From Prevotella sp. (GTDB lineage: Bacteria; Bacteroidota; Bacteroidia; Bacteroidales; Bacteroidaceae), in NCBI GenBank assembly GCA_022764085.1, contig JALERP010000111.1, positions 1 to 54,580 on the forward strand: a DNA stretch of 54,580 nt, read 5' to 3'. How positions within the stretch are numbered: position 1 is the stretch's first letter; each line of letters begins with the position of its first letter. The notes beneath the pieces were generated by a model. That model was not told where the DNA came from. It made no database searches and was given only the letters and a program-made list of their open reading frames with translations. Shown here piece after piece: positions 40,332 through 51,906 of this stretch. The translations under genes and the position numbers were made by a program.

Positions 40332-42401
40332 TCAAAACTCAAAGCTCGCACCAGCCATTACCCATGTTCCAGGCTGTGGAATATTTCCATAGTCCACATA
40401 CATCTTGTCAAACAAGTTGTTGGCTTCTAAGTATAACTTATACTTAGGCGCGTTCCACGACAATCTCACATCCACAATAGAATAAGGTTTGTAGTCGCAA
40501 ACATTGCCGTCCACGTCGCTGTATGTGCCCATACGGTCCTGGTACCTGTAGTTGATGCCGAGGTCAAGCCCTTTCCATATATGCAGCTGCAGGTTGCCCA
40601 CCAACTTATGGCGCAGGTACTCCAGAGTGTATTTGCTCTGTATGCCCTCAACTTCCTTCTGGTCCTGGTCGAGATACATGTAGCTGATGTTAAATGATTT
40701 CAGCGTGTTCTGCCCGGGAATCATACGCCTGAAGTCAAGCGAAATGTTGGCTTGCACACCGAGAGTGTTTATCTTCGTGAAGTTAACCGACTTCCATACG
40801 GCGTCTTCCCCTTCCTTCGTGTCGAGAATCCAGTCGATGATGTTCTTGCTGTGATTATGGAACACGCTTGCCGATGCAGTCACTCCGCCGTGTGCATACT
40901 TGATGCCGCCTTCCAAAGCCGCCAGTTCTTCGGGCTTCAGGTATTTGTCAGCCTTATGTCCACCCACCGAATAGTAAAGTTCAGTAACCGAAGGCATCCT
41001 CAGCGACGTGTTATACGAGGCATACACCTTCCAGTCGTTGCCAATGCGGTAGCTCACATCCACACCAGGATATACCTTCATGCTCATGTAGTTCCATGAG
41101 TTCTTCACAGCCACGAGTCCTGCAGACAGCGTGAATCTCTCAAGTATGATGTTGTGCTCCAGCATGAAACTGATGTTGGTGCGGTTAAGGCCGTATTCAT
41201 ACATCCTGTCGGTGCCGCTGATGTGTTTCGGCTCGCCGAGCGGTTCGCCCAGGTTTCCGCTCACGAGGTCCTCGTTTCTTAGTTCCGCCCCTATTGCGGT
41301 GCGCCCGAGAATCCAGTCTAAGTATCCGTTGAGGTTCACCCCGAACACATCCGTGCGGTGGTAGTTGAAGGGATACTTGTCGGCAGCCCCGCGGAAGAGT
41401 TCAAACCGGTCCTCGTTGTGGTTCCAGTAGATCGACGGTTTCATATGGAATAGGCCGTTCTTGTTCTCCGCCTGGATTGCGGTGTAGGTCTTGAGCGTGT
41501 GCTCATACTGGTCGTCCCACTTCACACCGTAGAACGTGTTCGAGCCCCAGTCCTTTGCCGACAGTCCCGCGTGCCATTTCACCAGCACGTCCTCGTCGCT
41601 GTAGTTACCCTGGTAGAACACCTTGCCGCCCTTGTAGTCGGCGTTCAGTCCTCCCGCCTTGTTGCGGCTGTAGCCGTCGGAGCGTGTGTAGCTTCCCGAC
41701 AACTGGTTGTTCCAGTAGCCCGACTTCACGTTGGCCCTTGCTCCGGCTGACAGGTAGCCGTAGCTTCCTCCTTCCACGTGAGCCGACGCGCTGCTCTTCT
41801 CCCTCGGACGTGTCACGATGTTGATGGCTCCCACGAGTGACGATGTGCCATACACACGTCCTGCAGGACCCTCGAGCACCTCAATGCGCTCAATCTCGCT
41901 GATGTCAACGGGAAAGTCAAAGGCGTTGTGTCCGCTTTGCGGGTCACAGATGTTGATACCGTTAAGTAGGATTGCGATTTGCTCATAGTTGCCTCCACGG
42001 ATGCTGACGTCGGTCTGCGCTCCAATCGGTCCGCGCTGACGGACATCCACTCCTGCTGCGTATTTCAGCAAATCATTAACACTTTGTACCGGCGCAGCCT
42101 GAATATCGCTGCGTTCTAGTACAGTTACCATTCTCGCTGCCTGGTTGCGGGTCATAGGTGCTCTCGAACCCATGACGTTCACCTCTTCGAGAGTCATCTC
42201 GCGGTCGGTCTTGGTGGCGATGGTGTCGGCAGTCACTGGCTTTACGCTCACGCTCTCGGCGCTTGCGTATGTCAGCGTCGCTACGCTCAGCGTGCTGATG
42301 ATCACCTCACGTCCAAGACAGGCCAACAGCGAGTAACCCTTGCGTCCAAATCTCTTGAACACAATCACTCCAGGCTTCCTTCTTGAATTGTTTTTGTACA
42401 T
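40332..42401 (-). CDS. TonB-dependent outer-membrane receptor (BtuB/Cir-like)
   Basis: A 689-aa TonB-dependent receptor. It begins with an extended N-terminus rich in basic residues (VFKRFGRKGYSLLACLGREV) before the hydrophobic core IISTLSVATLTYASA, a form common in Bacteroidetes receptors. The TonB-box region and plug domain follow (LEEVNVMGSRAPMTRNQAAR to about 200), with SVNDLLKYAAGVDVRQRGPI, VSIRGGNYEQIAILLNGINI and VLEGPAGRVYGTSSLVGAIN. The barrel ends VDYGNIPQPGTWVMAGASFEF with terminal Phe. It lacks the carboxypeptidase-like N-domain and SusD partner of glycan systems, so a small ligand such as a corrinoid, iron chelate or metal is more likely. Vitamin B12 would fit nrdJ and meaB but is speculative. 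Confidence 0.88.
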   Translation of the reverse strand: MYKNNSRRKPGVIVFKRFGRKGYSLLACLGREVIISTLSVATLTYASAESVSVKPVTADTIATKTDREMTLEEVNVMGSRAPMTRNQAARMVTVLERSDIQAAPVQSVNDLLKYAAGVDVRQRGPIGAQTDVSIRGGNYEQIAILLNGINICDPQSGHNAFDFPVDISEIERIEVLEGPAGRVYGTSSLVGAINIVTRPREKSSASAHVEGGSYGYLSAGARANVKSGYWNNQLSGSYTRSDGYSRNKAGGLNADYKGGKVFYQGNYSDEDVLVKWHAGLSAKDWGSNTFYGVKWDDQYEHTLKTYTAIQAENKNGLFHMKPSIYWNHNEDRFELFRGAADKYPFNYHRTDVFGVNLNGYLDWILGRTAIGAELRNEDLVSGNLGEPLGEPKHISGTDRMYEYGLNRTNISFMLEHNIILERFTLSAGLVAVKNSWNYMSMKVYPGVDVSYRIGNDWKVYASYNTSLRMPSVTELYYSVGGHKADKYLKPEELAALEGGIKYAHGGVTASASVFHNHSKNIIDWILDTKEGEDAVWKSVNFTKINTLGVQANISLDFRRMIPGQNTLKSFNISYMYLDQDQKEVEGIQSKYTLEYLRHKLVGNLQLHIWKGLDLGINYRYQDRMGTYSDVDGNVCDYKPYSIVDVRLSWNAPKYKLYLEANNLFDKMYVDYGNIPQPGTWVMAGASFEF

Positions 42402-42480: not shown

Positions 42481-42488
42481 TAACTTTG
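42481..42488 (+). promoter_or_regulatory. Promoter -7 element for leader RNA / first LytTR gene
   Basis: TAACTTTG followed by GCATCC, the same context as other promoters here. It reads into a 460-bp region without a credible ORF before the LytTR gene. Confidence 0.6.
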
Positions 42489-42493
42489 CATCC

Positions 42494-42898
42494 GACTCCA
42501 AGCCCAACGCCGATGTAACAGAGGATGAAGCTTGCAATGCTGAAGCCTTTGTGAGGGTGGCAGGGATGGGAGTCAAGACATAATTTAGGCGTTTACACGG
42601 CGCTCTGTTTGAGACACACTGGAATCTTGCAAACCTCCATATATCAAAGTCTTGAACTTAGCAACGGTAGATGCCCAGGGTGTGATGTATCACAACCAAA
42701 TCAGGATATTATGCATATTATATATGTATAGTGCATACCTTGTATTGTTTGGGGTGCTGCCTGTACGTATTTGTATGTTGTCCCTTGGTCGTGTCTTCAT
42801 ATCGGCGTGGGCTTCTGGCGTTGTCTGTTCAACTTTGATAGGCAATTGCAAGAGCCTCAGTGTGTGGAACGGACAACCGATGGTTCCACGCTTTTTTT
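42494..42898 (+). ncRNA. Candidate structured leader / non-coding RNA upstream of LytTR gene
   Basis: A transcript from the promoter at 42481 would run about 400 nt to an intrinsic terminator. I see four helices. A 5' hairpin closes with GACTCC (42494-42499) and GGAGTC (42569-42574). A long-range helix pairs AAGCCCAACGCCGAT (42500-42514) with ATCGGCGTGGGCTT (42801-42814), 14 pairs and one bulged A. GTTGTCTGTTC (42820-42830) pairs with GAACGGACAAC (42867-42877). The terminator stem (42862-42870/42883-42891) shares GAAC with the previous helix, so the two exclude each other, as in attenuators and riboswitches. No ORF in the region looks real, and I recognise no known RNA class (not tmRNA, RNase P or SRP RNA). 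Confidence 0.5.
42862..42898 (+). terminator. Intrinsic terminator upstream of the first LytTR gene
   Basis: A 9-bp stem GTGTGGAAC/GTTCCACGC with a 12-nt loop, followed by seven T. It ends 54 bp before the LytTR start, so readthrough would be needed to express that gene from the upstream promoter. Confidence 0.8.
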
Positions 42899-42952
42899 GT
42901 GCTCTTGAATATTATCTGACTATTTTTTTTATTAGGAAAGTATAGGTTAGTA

Positions 42953-43309
42953 ATGAGGAAAGTCTATATAAAGAACAGGGACGAGCTTATTGTCCTGCAT
43001 CCTGACTCCGTGGCGTATATGCTTGCCGACGGCAACTATACCAAGATTGTGTATATCAGCGGTGTGCAGGTGGTGCTCACTATGGGCATCACCAAGGTGG
43101 AGCAACTCTTCGCCGAGTCCATCGACTCCGACAACACTTGCGAGTTTGTAAGGCTTGGTCGGAGTCTTGTCATCAACCAGAACTTCCTTCACCACATCAA
43201 TGTGGCGAAGCAGAAGCTAACCCTCTTCGACGGCAACAAGAGCACTCTGACACTCCAGCTCCCCAAGCAGCTCCTGAAAACCTACAAGGCGGAACTCACC
43301 GAAGGGTAG
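42953..43309 (+). CDS. Stand-alone LytTR-domain DNA-binding regulator (copy 1)
   Basis: A 118-aa protein that is essentially one LytTR domain, a beta-rich DNA-binding fold that recognises paired direct repeats about 21 bp apart. Typical features are the start MRKVYIKNRDELIVLHPDSV, YMLADGNYTKIVYISG, a central TMGITKVEQLF, FVRLGRSLVINQNFLHHINV, and LTLQLPKQLLKTYKAEL at the end. There is no receiver or membrane domain, so the input is unknown and may be the leader RNA upstream. It resembles the second LytTR protein (54081-54440) along its whole length. Its 3' end overlaps the 3' end of the reverse-strand ATPase gene by 14 bp. Confidence 0.85.
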   Translation: MRKVYIKNRDELIVLHPDSVAYMLADGNYTKIVYISGVQVVLTMGITKVEQLFAESIDSDNTCEFVRLGRSLVINQNFLHHINVAKQKLTLFDGNKSTLTLQLPKQLLKTYKAELTEG

Positions 43310-45537: not shown

Positions 45538-48500
45538 ATGAACAAAGTTACACTTTCTGTTGCCGCATTAGCGGCTATCGCAGTGCCTGTGCAAGCACAG
45601 GTGCTCACAGGCGATGCCAAAAAAGCTGCCGTTGAGGATGTAAAGGCTTACATCAATGACGCGCATGATTTGGTTACATCTTTTGGCTATAAATCGGTTT
45701 GCCAACCGTATCAGGTAAAGCTTAATGACCTTTGGACAACTTTCAATACAAAGTATGTTGAGGGTACAGAAGGTCTTACCAATGAAATTTGTGTTACTAC
45801 GAAACTTGCCGCACAGGCTGCTGTAGATGAGGCTTCTAACGCTAAGAAACCATACGAGGTTAAGGATGAACTGCAGGGTATTAAGGAAAACTTGATTACA
45901 TTGTATGGTCAGGTTTTGTCTCGTATTGATAATGATGCCAACTATAGCGATGCCTTCATAAAAGCTAAAATTGCTGCCTTGAAAGAATATAAGGAAGGTA
46001 GAGCAGCTACTGACAAGCTTGCTGCTATCGTAGGTCTTGACGAAATTAAGTTGGATTCTTATGACTTGTCAAATGATAAAATTGTACAGGACCGCCAGAC
46101 CATCAAGGATCAGCTGGCTGTCATTGATTATGCCCTCAAAAATACATTCAGCAAAGAAACTCTTGATGCTGAGTATGCTAATAATACCAACGATGCTGCA
46201 TTCAAGTATGTAAATGACGAGATTGCTCGTGTTGAAGGTGTTATTACAGCAAAGTTCAATGATTTCCGTACATTGTTCCCATTGGAAGAGACAGTATGGA
46301 CAGACTGGTATAACGACGCTTTCACCAAGCTCGGTGCTTATCAGCAGGATTTGAAGAAAGTTGCCCAGTACAACAAGGAAGCTCATGAGAGTGCTGATGA
46401 GAGCAAGAATGCATTGGCTCTGCAGGGTACAAACCTCAGTGAAATCAGTAGAATTGAAGGTGAGATTGATAATCTGTATATAAAGTATGATGGTCTGAAG
46501 ACAGCTGAGGCTAAAGCATATAAGGAAGTCGGTAATCTCATTAGCGAAGCAAAGGGTGTGCTTAATGGTAAACTCACTGCTCTCCATGAAAAGAATATCA
46601 ATGTTACTTTGATTGACACTCAGATCAATCAGCTCATTTCTGATATCGATAACTTCAAGACTAACAAGCTCGATGCAGCTTACAATGCTCACCAGGCAGT
46701 TGACAAGCAGAGCAAACTTGAATCTGATTTTAAAAAAGTCCTTGAGAATGTAGGTGATCCGAACTATTCATATACCAAGTTGCAGACCTATGCTGACAAA
46801 CTTGTTCAGAATAAGAAGGACTACAACTCAATGATTAGTAATTTGGATGATAAGCTCAAAGCCCTCTCAGAGAAAGAGAAAAAGGCAAAGGAAGCTTCAA
46901 AAGTTGACAAGTCATACAATCCTGCTGCTCACTTCACCACAGAGTACAATCGTATCAAGGATACAATGGTTGGAGGTGAGAAGACCAAGTTGGCTAACGA
47001 CCTTAAGGCTGTTAATCCTGTTGATGGCAATGATGGCAAGTATCCAAATACATCTTACAAGAATGATGTTACAAATGGTATAACCAAAGCCCTAACAGAT
47101 ATCCAGACTGCCATTGACAACTATGCATCTGGAACTGCTAATGCTCTTGAGTATTTCGATATAGCAAAGAAGACCTACGATGACAACAAGAAGTTGTATG
47201 ATGAACTCGTTAAGACTGCCACTAATACTTCAGTGACAATTGACGGTCTTGCTGTTACCGAGACTACATACGCTGTCTATATCGCAAAGGTTAAGGGTGA
47301 ACTCGACGCTATCAACTCTGCCATCGCAACTGCCAATGGCATGAATGACTTTGATCACCGCGATGAGATGAAGAAGGCTTCTGAGAAGACTGTTGACAGC
47401 AGAATCGAGGCTCTTACCGAAGGATATGGAGTAAATGAAAAGAACTGGAATCAGAATGTCAGGATGGCTAATGCCGAGAATACATACGCAGCTGTAAGCG
47501 GTGATCTCCAGGCTTTGAAAGACCGTGTAACGGTTATCCAAAAAAATCTTGATGGTACCAATAAGGATAGCAAGAAGTTGTATGGTGATACTGAGGGTTC
47601 ATTGAAGTGTGAACTTGCTGTGGCAATCCAGAAATCAATAAAAACTATCAACACTACTAAGGATACAGGTATCGATGCTGTTGATACAGATATTAAAGCA
47701 ATGTTTAAGGCTTATACTGATCTCGGTATTGACGATGCAAACATTGCAAAGAAGCTTGAAGCCGCTGATAAGGTGACTGCCAAGAAGGACGCATGGAACA
47801 AACTGATTAGTGATATCGCCACTAAGGTTGATCAACTTGAGGCTGATGCCAAGGTAGCTGCTGAAAACAAGAGCGCATACGATGTACTCGCTGCAAAGGC
47901 AAATGCCGCCTCTGATGGTAAGGGCAATGTTGCTTATGCTATAGAAAATACTCTGAGCAAGATACAACAACACTATGTCAGCAATGGTATTGCTAACTAT
48001 ACAGATGACGCTGGTTATGGTTATTTTAATACCCTTCTCAGTACAACTAAGACAAAAAGTCTTACGAGCATCAGAACAAATATCGAGAAATCCTTCAAGG
48101 CCGGTAAGATGGTTGCCGATGAAAAGTCTAAGAACTACGACGGTCAGCTCAACACTCTGAAGGAGGATGTTGAAGGACAGTATATGAAGGCTATCAACAA
48201 CCTCGACAAGTATAAGACCCAGTGCAAGCGCATCGACGGTACACAAAATGACAAGGGTGATTACGTAGGTGGTCTCAACCAGACATACGATGCTGTATTG
48301 GCACTTGTTAAGGCTGACCAGACTTCTGCCGCTGCCGATATGCTCAAGCAGCTCGCTACTGCCAAGAGTGAACTCGAGACTCTGCGTGCTCTCGTCAATA
48401 CAAATTATGCTCAGGGCAAGTGCGACACTGAGAACGCTAAATATGAGGAGACATTCAACGCCATCAGCGAAAAGATTGAGGCTGTTCGCAACCAGCAGTC

Positions 48501-51500
48501 TAAGTGGCCTGAGGTACTCCGTCAGGACAACCTCAACGAGCACAACAACTTCCTCAATGTTTCGTTCAAGTCTGCCAAGGATAAGTTCGACGAGGCTGTG
48601 TCTATCATCAACGAGTTCAGCTCAATCAAGAATGACGCTGTTAAGAAAGCATTGGAGGATCTTGTTGAAACTCACAAGGCTATCTTCGACTATGCCGACA
48701 GTCTTCGTGTGCTGCAGGTCAACGAGAATGCTGCATTCGAGGCTAACAAGGCTCTCACCGATCCTACCCTCTATGTTGCTACCGAATATAAGAACAAGGC
48801 AAAAGACTTCGTGGCAGGTATCGAAAAAGAGTTGCAGAAATACTGCAATGGTGTGAACGAGGCCGCTTGGAATCAGTGCCAGGAAAGGCTTACTTATGCT
48901 TATAATGAGTTGAGTACAGCTCAGACATATGTAAATAATAACTACAAGTCTAAGGAAGCTATTGCCAACGCATTCGCTGACCTTAAGTCAACTGTAAACG
49001 GTGCATTAGGAGCTGCTGCCGGTAGTACAAAGGAAACCGATATTAAGGACTTCGTTAATGGAGGGTCTTTCGATCCTGCAAAGTGTGACCGTCGTTTCGC
49101 CGCTATCGTTGACGAAAGCTTCGAGGAACTTGAGCAGGAAACATTCGATGCAGCTCTTGCCGCTGCCAAGGTTGAAGTGGCTATCGCTGAATACAACTGG
49201 ACATATAAGCACGCTATCGACAGCTACAACGATGAAAACAAAGCAATCTCTGAAATCACCAATCCTGCTGTTGACAAGGATGACTATCTTGCTCAGATTA
49301 AAGATTTGAAGGAGAAGAACATTGACGCAGGTAAGAAGTTGTATGATGAATACAATGGCAATGATTTGTTCAAATACGTAGTCACTGTCACAGGCACGAT
49401 TAATGGTTACTTCGACAACACTACAGATGAAGACAAGAATCATAATTACACATGGAAGTCAAAGCCTTACAAGGATGTATTGGATCTGCTCAATAACCTC
49501 GAGTATCAGGCAGGCATACAGGCTGTCATCAATACCGGTGAGCAAAAGATTAATGGCTATGCAGATGAGCTAAATGCTCTCTTCGCAGCACACATCGAGG
49601 GCAATAGCACTATCTATGATGCTATCAACAAGATGTATTCTGACTTGTATGCATTTGATGTCGCTAATGCTGTAAAGGGCGATGGACTTGATAAGGATGT
49701 TGAAACATACGTCAACGGCAAGGTATCTGACAATGGTTCAATCGAGGCACAAATGGCTTCTATTCGCTCTCAGGCTATCACTCTTGAGATTGAAACCCTC
49801 GAGAATGAGGTACAGCGCGTTAAGGAGCAGTACAACAATGCATTCAAGGAGATTGGTGTAGGATTCGATGCCGACCATAAGTATGCTAATAAGATCGAAG
49901 ACCTCAGAGTAAGACTCAACAACAGTGCTGCTAAAGGTACAGAAGGTTATATACCTGGATATAGTGAGAAGTGGGCTAATAATGAACTCACTTATGTTCA
50001 GGCATACCAGCAACTGTTGGGTGTTCAGAGAGAGATTGCCCAGCTGAGCAGCGACATCGCTTCTGAATACAAAGATGGTTCTGCCATCAGCAACGCTGCT
50101 GCTCTCCTTGCACAGAAGTCTGCCGAGGTTACGGCTGTAGTATCTAAGATCTCTGAAAAGATTCACGAGTTCGCTGCCATCGAGGCTGAGGTTGGTGCTG
50201 ACATCGACAAACTTGTTAAGGACCTTGAAGGAGTAGATGAGGACGTGACTCTGAAGACCGCTGACGAGACCGTTCTGTTCTACAAGCTCAACTTCATCAC
50301 CGACTACGACAGAATACTTACTGCTTGCAACGAATTGTGGAAGGGTAAGATTTCTGTTAGCTCTTCTCTTACAGTTAAAGATGCATACGCTCGCTACAAG
50401 AATAACGATGACAACTATAAGACTCTTATCGACAATCTCGACAACGTTATCGTTGCCAAGTATAATGCTGTTAAGTCTGAGGTTGACGCATTCGAGTTCT
50501 ATGAGACTGTATTCAAGGAGTGGGTTGGAAATCATAAAGTTTATGAGCACTGGACAACAGCAGAGGAGCGCAAGTTAGATGAAGCTGTTGAGTCATATCG
50601 TAATGTTATTGAAACTGCTGCTGCTGAAATCAATCTGAAGAATGGTGTAACAGCTGAGTTTGGTATTACTAATCCTAATGACTCTAAATTCACTACACCT
50701 GCTGATAATTTGAAATCCGATATCGCTACATTCGAGAAGGATGCTAAGTATAAGGAAGCCTCCCAGACATATCTTCCTAACATCAGTAACACTCTTAATA
50801 GTGTTGATTGGTTGTTGAGTTCAGAAAAGTATGCTCCGACGACAGAAGGGGAGTTACAAAGCGAGTATTCAACATTGTCTTGGGCTCGTGATTGTGCAAA
50901 TTCATATAATTTTAATGTATATAAGAATAGCGGTACATTTACAGACATTGATGGAAAACCAATAGAGATTATCCCGTCCTCTGATCCTACTGATCCCAAT
51001 GCAAGACCTTCATTTAAGTGGGTTACTAAAGACTATGTCGCTGAAGTATGGCCCGAGGTTAAGGCAAAGGCCGCTGAGCTTCAGGCTGCTGCCAACGAAC
51101 TCTTGGCAAGGGCACAGGCTAATTCTTATATCCTTGGTGATGTTGACCACGATGGTAAGGTTACAGTTATCGACTATGCACGCGTTCGCAACATGATTCT
51201 CAGTGGTATCACATACGATGATATTGCCGACGAGGTGGTTCGTTATTCTGCAGACGCCACAGTAGACAAGAAGATTAACGTTGCAGACCTTTCTCAGATC
51301 TCAACCTTTATCTTCGGTGAAAATGTCAATAACGCATCACGTGCTGCTCTCTTCGCATCTGACTTTAGTGCAGAGAACAAGATTGCCGCTGCTATCGACT
51401 CTGAGGAGACCACAATCTTCGGTAAGACTGTACGCGTGGCTATCAATGTAGAGTCAGGTGTTGCCTTTACAGCAGGTCAGTTCGACGTTAAGTTGCCAGC

Positions 51501-51906
51501 AGGCATGAAGCTCGTAGGAGCATCACTCTCTGAGCGTGCTAACGGACACGAGGTACTCACTGGTGACCTTGAGAACGGCATGAAGCGTGTGGTTGTATCT
51601 GTTGTTGAGAACAACTCATTCAACGGCAACAACGGTGCACTTGTTTACCTCGACGTTGAGGTTGCAAGCGAGTTCAACGGTGGCAACATCGAGGTGAGCG
51701 ACGCTATCTTCACCGACGGATGCGCTAACAGCTACTATCTGACCAACAATGGTCCTGTTGTTCCGACAGGCATCGATGGTGTAGAGGCTGCTACCGCTAA
51801 GGAGCGCATCTACTCAGTAGGTGGTCAGATGATGAAGGCAGTCAAGAAGGGTATCAATATTCTCGTTGGCGACGACAACAAGAGCAAGAAAGTTGTCAAC
51901 AAGTAA
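45538..51906 (+). CDS. Giant helical surface protein with dockerin, cohesin-like domain and sorting-like tail
   Basis: A 2122-aa exported protein. The signal peptide is MNKVTLSVAALAAIAVPVQAQ. Residues about 30-1860 are almost entirely charged amphipathic helix, probably spectrin-like bundles (e.g. KAKEASKVDKSYNPAAHF), with no catalytic motif that I recognise. A type I dockerin follows at about 1865-1930, with two EF-hand-like loops (DVDHDGKVTVIDYARVRNMI and SADATVDKKINVADLSQIST). Then comes a cohesin-like beta-sandwich (about 1945-2075; FTAGQFDVKLPAGMKLVGAS). A final 45-residue tail contains IYSVGGQMMKAVKKGINILV and ends in KKVVNK, resembling short C-terminal signals common on secreted Bacteroidales proteins. 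Codon choice looks more A/T-rich, with many GCT and GTT codons, than in sprA. It is the first gene of a three-gene operon. Confidence 0.8.
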   Translation: MNKVTLSVAALAAIAVPVQAQVLTGDAKKAAVEDVKAYINDAHDLVTSFGYKSVCQPYQVKLNDLWTTFNTKYVEGTEGLTNEICVTTKLAAQAAVDEASNAKKPYEVKDELQGIKENLITLYGQVLSRIDNDANYSDAFIKAKIAALKEYKEGRAATDKLAAIVGLDEIKLDSYDLSNDKIVQDRQTIKDQLAVIDYALKNTFSKETLDAEYANNTNDAAFKYVNDEIARVEGVITAKFNDFRTLFPLEETVWTDWYNDAFTKLGAYQQDLKKVAQYNKEAHESADESKNALALQGTNLSEISRIEGEIDNLYIKYDGLKTAEAKAYKEVGNLISEAKGVLNGKLTALHEKNINVTLIDTQINQLISDIDNFKTNKLDAAYNAHQAVDKQSKLESDFKKVLENVGDPNYSYTKLQTYADKLVQNKKDYNSMISNLDDKLKALSEKEKKAKEASKVDKSYNPAAHFTTEYNRIKDTMVGGEKTKLANDLKAVNPVDGNDGKYPNTSYKNDVTNGITKALTDIQTAIDNYASGTANALEYFDIAKKTYDDNKKLYDELVKTATNTSVTIDGLAVTETTYAVYIAKVKGELDAINSAIATANGMNDFDHRDEMKKASEKTVDSRIEALTEGYGVNEKNWNQNVRMANAENTYAAVSGDLQALKDRVTVIQKNLDGTNKDSKKLYGDTEGSLKCELAVAIQKSIKTINTTKDTGIDAVDTDIKAMFKAYTDLGIDDANIAKKLEAADKVTAKKDAWNKLISDIATKVDQLEADAKVAAENKSAYDVLAAKANAASDGKGNVAYAIENTLSKIQQHYVSNGIANYTDDAGYGYFNTLLSTTKTKSLTSIRTNIEKSFKAGKMVADEKSKNYDGQLNTLKEDVEGQYMKAINNLDKYKTQCKRIDGTQNDKGDYVGGLNQTYDAVLALVKADQTSAAADMLKQLATAKSELETLRALVNTNYAQGKCDTENAKYEETFNAISEKIEAVRNQQSKWPEVLRQDNLNEHNNFLNVSFKSAKDKFDEAVSIINEFSSIKNDAVKKALEDLVETHKAIFDYADSLRVLQVNENAAFEANKALTDPTLYVATEYKNKAKDFVAGIEKELQKYCNGVNEAAWNQCQERLTYAYNELSTAQTYVNNNYKSKEAIANAFADLKSTVNGALGAAAGSTKETDIKDFVNGGSFDPAKCDRRFAAIVDESFEELEQETFDAALAAAKVEVAIAEYNWTYKHAIDSYNDENKAISEITNPAVDKDDYLAQIKDLKEKNIDAGKKLYDEYNGNDLFKYVVTVTGTINGYFDNTTDEDKNHNYTWKSKPYKDVLDLLNNLEYQAGIQAVINTGEQKINGYADELNALFAAHIEGNSTIYDAINKMYSDLYAFDVANAVKGDGLDKDVETYVNGKVSDNGSIEAQMASIRSQAITLEIETLENEVQRVKEQYNNAFKEIGVGFDADHKYANKIEDLRVRLNNSAAKGTEGYIPGYSEKWANNELTYVQAYQQLLGVQREIAQLSSDIASEYKDGSAISNAAALLAQKSAEVTAVVSKISEKIHEFAAIEAEVGADIDKLVKDLEGVDEDVTLKTADETVLFYKLNFITDYDRILTACNELWKGKISVSSSLTVKDAYARYKNNDDNYKTLIDNLDNVIVAKYNAVKSEVDAFEFYETVFKEWVGNHKVYEHWTTAEERKLDEAVESYRNVIETAAAEINLKNGVTAEFGITNPNDSKFTTPADNLKSDIATFEKDAKYKEASQTYLPNISNTLNSVDWLLSSEKYAPTTEGELQSEYSTLSWARDCANSYNFNVYKNSGTFTDIDGKPIEIIPSSDPTDPNARPSFKWVTKDYVAEVWPEVKAKAAELQAAANELLARAQANSYILGDVDHDGKVTVIDYARVRNMILSGITYDDIADEVVRYSADATVDKKINVADLSQISTFIFGENVNNASRAALFASDFSAENKIAAAIDSEETTIFGKTVRVAINVESGVAFTAGQFDVKLPAGMKLVGASLSERANGHEVLTGDLENGMKRVVVSVVENNSFNGNNGALVYLDVEVASEFNGGNIEVSDAIFTDGCANSYYLTNNGPVVPTGIDGVEAATAKERIYSVGGQMMKAVKKGINILVGDDNKSKKVVNK

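Follow-up and report, generated by a model that had tools for sequence, protein, structure and literature searches.

A candidate class of cis-acting leader RNA with two mutually exclusive folds in Bacteroidales

Background

Termination riboswitches (e.g., TPP and cobalamin) are 5' leaders with a conserved structured domain in which a helix and a terminator exclude each other, and they are found at several unrelated loci per genome. Polarity varies among known riboswitch platforms. T-box leaders are also large 5' leaders, with competing terminator and antiterminator structures. In the capsule operons of Bacteroides, a leader lies between the promoter and upxY and termination is expected; UpxY proteins work in these 5' leaders, for which no RNA structure is described in the available portion of the source (PMC7819879). 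LoaP recognises a hairpin in the dfn leader RNA, a small structure of UNCG type upstream of an intrinsic terminator (PMC12691694). Among structured RNA candidates from the human microbiome, the available portion of one survey describes 3161 that are unnamed, 27–219 bp in length and in some cases from Bacteroidetes (PMC8040213).

The element described here was found in a contig of Prevotella sp. (JALERP010000111.1, assembly GCA_022764085.1); the whole stretch that was analysed, 54,580 nt, is referred to as the window. Like the termination riboswitches, the element is a same-strand 5' leader with a covarying structure and a conserved helix that excludes an intrinsic terminator, and it recurs at several unrelated loci in a genome. 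It differs from them in having no Rfam match, no metabolic theme among its downstream genes and a ligand that is putative, and its alternative fold is a rod that extends along the entire leader, not a small antiterminator formed locally. As in attenuators that use intrinsic termination, a predicted G+C-rich hairpin and then a U-tract lie 5' of the start codon. With the UpxY leaders the element shares its general arrangement and, for one sub-type, its gene context, but it is missing at the best-scoring UpxY genes and stands ahead of many genes that are not UpxY. The resemblance to the dfn leader is that of a structured leader RNA upstream of an intrinsic terminator, although here the RNA is 190–400 nt long and has two states. 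A GUGGNAC-like stretch near the terminator is shared with T-box leaders; assignment to that class was rejected, as the UGGN varies (variants such as GCGG are found together with compensating terminator arms), there are no tRNA-related genes, and there is no Rfam match. Nor was there an aminoacylation or amino-acid theme downstream, where the gene families differ. The microbiome candidates are likewise uncharacterised conserved RNAs, differing in their length of 27–219 bp; fragments of the element may be among them.

Results

The sequence-only reading had proposed that a promoter, a leader free of credible ORFs and an intrinsic terminator precede a LytTR regulator gene. All three were recovered on the plus strand. 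A Bacteroidota -7 box (TAACTTTG) of the type TAnnTTTG, which is the -7 consensus (PMC7366714), was present at 42481–42488, and predicts a transcription start near 42494. No ORF of coding quality was found in the leader up to the ATG at 42953. The local terminator T1 (42862–42898) comprised a hairpin at 42862–42891 (GTGTGGAAC/GTTCCACGC) followed by seven T at 42892–42898, and ended 54 nt 5' of the LytTR start codon; there was no TAnnTTTG promoter between the terminator and the gene. The identity of that gene held in part. It is predicted to encode a stand-alone LytTR-type DNA-binding protein of 118 amino acids (42953–43309, plus strand), and the Pfam match of the window protein itself fell below the cut-off (E = 0.0021), but a homologue with 74% identity at another copy of the element (L014) passed it, as did other linked LytTR proteins. 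Upstream of the leader lay a divergent gene for a TonB-dependent receptor (40332–42401, minus strand). Downstream, an ORF for a predicted AAA-ATPase-like protein (PF09820; 43296–44654, minus strand) was convergent with the LytTR ORF and overlapped its end. Further on, a plus-strand ORF of 2122 codons (45538–51906) encoded a repetitive protein that is probably coiled-coil, judging from its translation, with a dockerin-like stretch (GDVDHDGKVTVIDYARV) near the C-terminus.

The leader folded at -161.5 kcal/mol, which was well below dinucleotide shuffles (z = -7.4). Its conserved core was located at 42572–42907 by a match to covariance model R1 (180 bits, E = 3e-48). Outside the core lay a variable 5' hairpin (GACTCC...GGGAGTC, 42494–42574); blastn matches of relatives to the leader began only at 42571. 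A pairing between the 5' end and a segment some 300 nt downstream, put at 14 pairs by the sequence-only reading, proved to exist in a shorter form: the 5' arm alpha (CCAACGCCGAT, 42504–42514) was complementary to the invariant ATCGGCGTGGG at 42801–42811, 286 nt away, with 91% complementarity over 11 nt. Of 88 copies, 28 had an arm of this kind of at least 8 nt; shuffled controls had none.

Altogether, 129 candidate copies with a common architecture were collected. A blastn search with the leader found one further copy in the genome of the window (G000:C179:11423-11673; L002, L248), located ahead of an ORF of 257 amino acids, and, in a relative (G015), several more. When the conserved 3' stretch of the RNA was used as a search pattern, 47 of the 150 genomes sampled from the genus, i.e., about one third, contained a match, while the reversed pattern, used as a control, gave none. 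Across the order, 15 of 294 genomes matched, and named genomes contained at least 119 matching stretches. The matches listed were mostly from Bacteroidales, and included Prevotella, Segatella copri, Hallella mizrahii, Xylanibacter rodentium and Paraprevotella xylaniphila, as well as Phocaeicola oris, Bacteroides, Alistipes, Muribaculaceae, Paludibacteraceae and Rikenellaceae; a minority in unrelated phyla was attributed to chance, the rest of the element being absent there. A viral origin was rejected, as just one of 16 pattern matches in viral contigs was a genuine copy (L178; IMG/VR contig 3300021319_000137, 384–636), and no pattern match was found in plasmids.

With a covariance model derived from 66 copies, the RNA was detected in 34 of 60 well-assembled related genomes (about half), with up to 12 copies in each. 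The model also revealed a shorter sub-class of about 180–220 nt, which reaches other families of the class, and matched two genomes there. Short copies (L259–L278) came from other families and orders, with as many as 12 in one genome (G051); in these, P4 frequently took the form of a tight GCUCACGCC/GGCGUGGGC hairpin, and the local terminator was absent. With Rfam 15, no family matched the window locus at the gathering cut-off, nor was there any match to E = 10 at that locus; 15 other loci with copies, and 20 loci carrying copies of the short class, likewise gave no family. Open papers in PMC contained no sequence or description of the element that could be found. The proposal that the leader resembles an attenuator or riboswitch of no recognised class is supported by these results: a covariance model could be built, homologues were numerous and their helices covaried, and both the competing helix and the terminator were conserved among them. 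A lack of covariation, which the sequence-only reading had named as grounds for refutation, was not observed.

Two sets of helices were identified in the core, and these support two mutually exclusive folds, i.e., a long rod and a local 5' domain accompanied by a helix between strands x and z (x:z). The rod is a long set of helices (w:y, v:v', GAAC:GUUC, CAAC:GUUG and P4) linking the 5' domain to the 3' domain. In the window, strand w (ACACACTG, CTTGCA; 42614–42631) has strand y (TGCAAG...CAGTGTGT; 42846–42865) as its long-range partner, and strand v (TATCAAAGT, 42642–42650) pairs with v' (ACTTTGATA, 42832–42840). Within the rod, the GAAC of GTCTTGAAC (42649–42657) is matched by the GTTC of strand x (GTTGTCTGTTC, 42820–42830), while the conserved stretch AGCAACGGTAGATGCCCAGGG (42660–42680) offers CAAC to the GTTG of x and GCCC to P4, of which the invariant CGGCGTGGGC (42803–42812) is the 3' strand. 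In the local fold, P1 joins GGCGTTTAC (42588–42596) to 42667–42675 (GTAGATGCC, within 42660–42680), and P3 joins GTTTGAGAC (42607–42615) to its 3' strand, which is the same GTCTTGAAC. Strand x is then partnered by z (GAACGGACAAC, 42867–42877), and the GCGTGGG within 42803–42812 by the 3' arm of the terminator. The 11-bp x:z helix had been described in the sequence-only reading, and it was exact; the GAAC of z is indeed also part of the left arm of T1, making the two structures exclusive. Across the family, x:z and T1 had GRAC in common and both were conserved, in agreement with the expression-platform layout that had been suggested.

Among 99 non-redundant copies, the w:y columns contained all four Watson-Crick types with 97–99% pairing, and the best w:y pairs exceeded every pair in 40 null alignments simulated on the tree. 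Strands v and v' were far more complementary in cognate than in swapped combinations (z = 39). On alignment A2, the rod accounted for 456 double-change cells compared with 162 in shuffles, and the local fold for 93 compared with 38; none of 500 shuffles matched either value. For the local fold, all nine P1 pairs (GGCGUUUAC:GUAGAUGYC) were present in 77 of 96 copies (z = 11), while P3 was the weakest helix (z = 6.1), with 75.5% of A2 cells paired. A reading of TTTGTTCTTGAC as a boxA was dropped, since this stretch varies between sub-types along with its P3 partner. The x:z helix was perfect in 111 of 129 copies, involving six different x sequences, and was paired in 99.7% of A2 cells; its covariation consisted mainly of wobble pairs and sub-type swaps. 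All seven pairs between GCGUGGG and the 3' arm of the terminator were present in 91 of 95 copies, and T1, with at least six pairs followed by a U-tract, in 83 of 94 long copies. A further local hairpin (A), formed by x and GGGCAAU, was well paired in long copies; no counterpart was seen by eye in the short class, and hairpin A was therefore treated as secondary. Since strands are common to both, the rod and the local fold are exclusive. We infer that neither P3 nor x:z would have room beside a complete w:y/v:v' duplex, the linkers being nearly absent.

The position of the element relative to genes was consistent. Where a next ORF could be called, its strand was that of the element in 113 of 118 copies, and 88 of these same-strand ORFs began within 119 nt of the U-tract; upstream ORFs were found in either orientation (67 plus, 51 minus). 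The element therefore appears to act in cis. A TAnnTTTG box was present 5' of the element in 14 of 15 copies inspected, and a promoter motif occurred between the U-tract and the ORF in only 10 of 113. A natural deletion allele was found in the leader of one UpxY gene (L220; G015:C71, about 1341–1410): compared with a close relative in L016, the promoter and coding start were the same, while the switch of approximately 370 nt, including the terminator, was missing. Separately, a G-rich stretch (TTGGGGAG type), often within a small hairpin, was observed 30–45 nt past the U-tract and before the start codon in 46 of 101 copies, against 25 in shuffles (e.g., L010, L090 and L151).

These figures bear on the idea that the element is a stand-alone small RNA lying near genes by accident. 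The RNA is bounded by a promoter and a terminator of its own, making a discrete transcript of 250–400 nt likely, but a free RNA would have no need of a same-strand neighbour so strictly and closely placed, nor of a conserved helix in competition with the terminator; this explanation is improbable.

The downstream genes were diverse. An UpxY antiterminator model matched 17 of 101 first downstream proteins; by Pfam, these proteins included NusG (15), BspA-type leucine-rich repeats (8) and LytTR (5, at the strict cut-off), and many families represented once, such as AbiH, dynamin, protein kinase, fimbrillin and MBOAT. No common metabolic theme pointed to a ligand. Gene context differed by sub-type: in that of the window (x = GUUGUCUGUUC), an UpxY capsule antiterminator was next in 16 of 23 copies, while in the other main sub-type (GUUGCUCGUUC) a signal-peptide-like protein was next in 32 of 56, as called by a crude predictor. 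With the same crude predictor, signal-peptide-like proteins overall were enriched relative to neighbouring genes (p = 0.025). The element was not a general UpxY leader. It was absent at 30 of the best-scoring UpxY loci of the genus and from 20 further stretches, compared with 17 linked ones where it was present, and within the most-linked UpxY clade there were close relatives that carried short leaders only. Many UpxY frames, with or without the leader element, carried an inverted repeat (CACATTGTCTAATGTG) soon after their start (e.g., L209, L212, L213, L222, L228, L230, L058 and L040).

Discussion

Comparative sequence evidence establishes the class itself, its cis location, its promoter, both sets of helices and the mutual exclusion of T1 and x:z; on this basis it is a real and widespread class of cis-acting leader RNA, undescribed until now, with a conserved two-state architecture and copies in many Bacteroidales of the gut and rumen. 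The RNA probably governs the early termination of transcription, for which it would flip from one to the other of two exclusive folds. Termination is presumably the output, and a signal presumably exists. We judge the element to be a new class of transcription-attenuating leader, riboswitch-like in its organisation and with a putative ligand.

In the proposed mechanism, five segments of the 5' domain (w, v, GAAC, CAAC and GCYCAY) would find their partners in the 3' domain (y, v', GUUC, GUUG and GUGGGC, respectively) and so form the rod; x would thereby be taken up and z left free, allowing T1 to form. In the local fold, the 5' domain would be closed on itself by P1 and P3, setting x free to pair with z, while GCGUGGG would pair with the 3' arm of the terminator and, together with x:z, block T1. 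The competing segments look alike, the 5' strand of P3 resembling x and its 3' strand resembling z, and strand exchange is for that reason the suggested mode of switching. In energy models, the rod was the minimum free energy structure in 92 of 95 copies and was formed before z had been transcribed in 94 of 95, and forcing the other fold cost 12 kcal/mol on average; the models thus point to the rod as the default state. A signal, whether a small molecule, a protein or something else, that stabilised the local 5' domain would then alter expression of the downstream gene, a LytTR regulator in the window and UpxY antiterminators or exported proteins at other loci.

The simplest reading of the long sub-class is that the rod corresponds to the terminated state and the local 5' domain plus x:z to the state that is not terminated. 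The window copy is a member of that sub-class, and whether the rod is OFF there is nevertheless about evenly balanced. At first x:z was taken for a plain antiterminator, a reading that was weakened by the short sub-class, where T1 is absent and the U-tract is adjoined only by GCGUGGG:CCCACGC continued by x:z. This alternative fold, reaching the U-tract through GCGUGGG:CCCACGC, may itself be the terminator. The polarity would then be reversed, with the rod, which occupies GCGUGGG (in P4) as well as x, as antiterminator (ON) and the local 5' domain as the OFF state, a reading that we regard as a genuine if tentative contender. It draws on the 18 scored short-class copies, where no local T1 of more than 2–4 pairs was seen, and on compensatory changes at the base of the long-range helix (GCGUGGA/UCCACGC in L262, GCGUGAG/CUCACGC in L269); in long copies also, the fully paired GCGUGGG helix abuts the U-tract. 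However, long copies, including that of the window, have a strong local T1 that is compatible with the core of the rod, and one T1 pair varies in step (A:U in 48, G:C in 38), while a loop of about 40 nt would be unusual for a terminator hairpin. Polarity may differ between the sub-classes, the short one being possibly opposite.

It is also conceivable, though rather unlikely, that the leader responds to a protein, with a specialised NusG paralogue of the UpxY/LoaP type, or another RNA-binding protein, recognising the RNA and suppressing the terminator. The precedents of UpxY in capsule leaders and of LoaP at the dfn hairpin are relevant here, as is the frequency of UpxY among first downstream genes, above all in the sub-type of the window. 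The same genomic survey weighs against it, since the element is lacking upstream of 30 UpxY genes that are among the best-scoring in the genus and in close relatives within the most-linked clade, and the majority of copies stand ahead of other genes; furthermore, the two-fold architecture would work without a processive antiterminator. Translational attenuation through a leader peptide is very improbable, for although 94 of 101 copies have an ATG within the conserved stretch TAGATG, the frames that follow it vary in length between 3 and 100 codons and share neither a peptide nor a conserved short ORF, and conservation of the ATG is explained by its helix strand.

Conclusion

Termination control by two exclusive folds remains the preferred reading. 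It could be taken further, tentatively, to a new riboswitch class that is widespread in Bacteroidota: a 5' domain would bind the signal, strand exchange would extend over the whole length of the RNA, and the ligand would be a new cue for surface remodelling in gut bacteria; the targets would comprise capsule antiterminators, LytTR regulators, surface genes and some defence-like genes. In well-sequenced bacteria, a class of large structured RNA that reaches a dozen copies in a genome is seldom still undescribed. Given that both folds are conserved, the strand-exchange design offers a clear natural example for the study of co-transcriptional RNA switching. The element precedes cell-surface genes, and so bears on how Bacteroidales choose their surface structures, a question that would be directly testable with a small reporter if the trigger is a metabolite or a protein.
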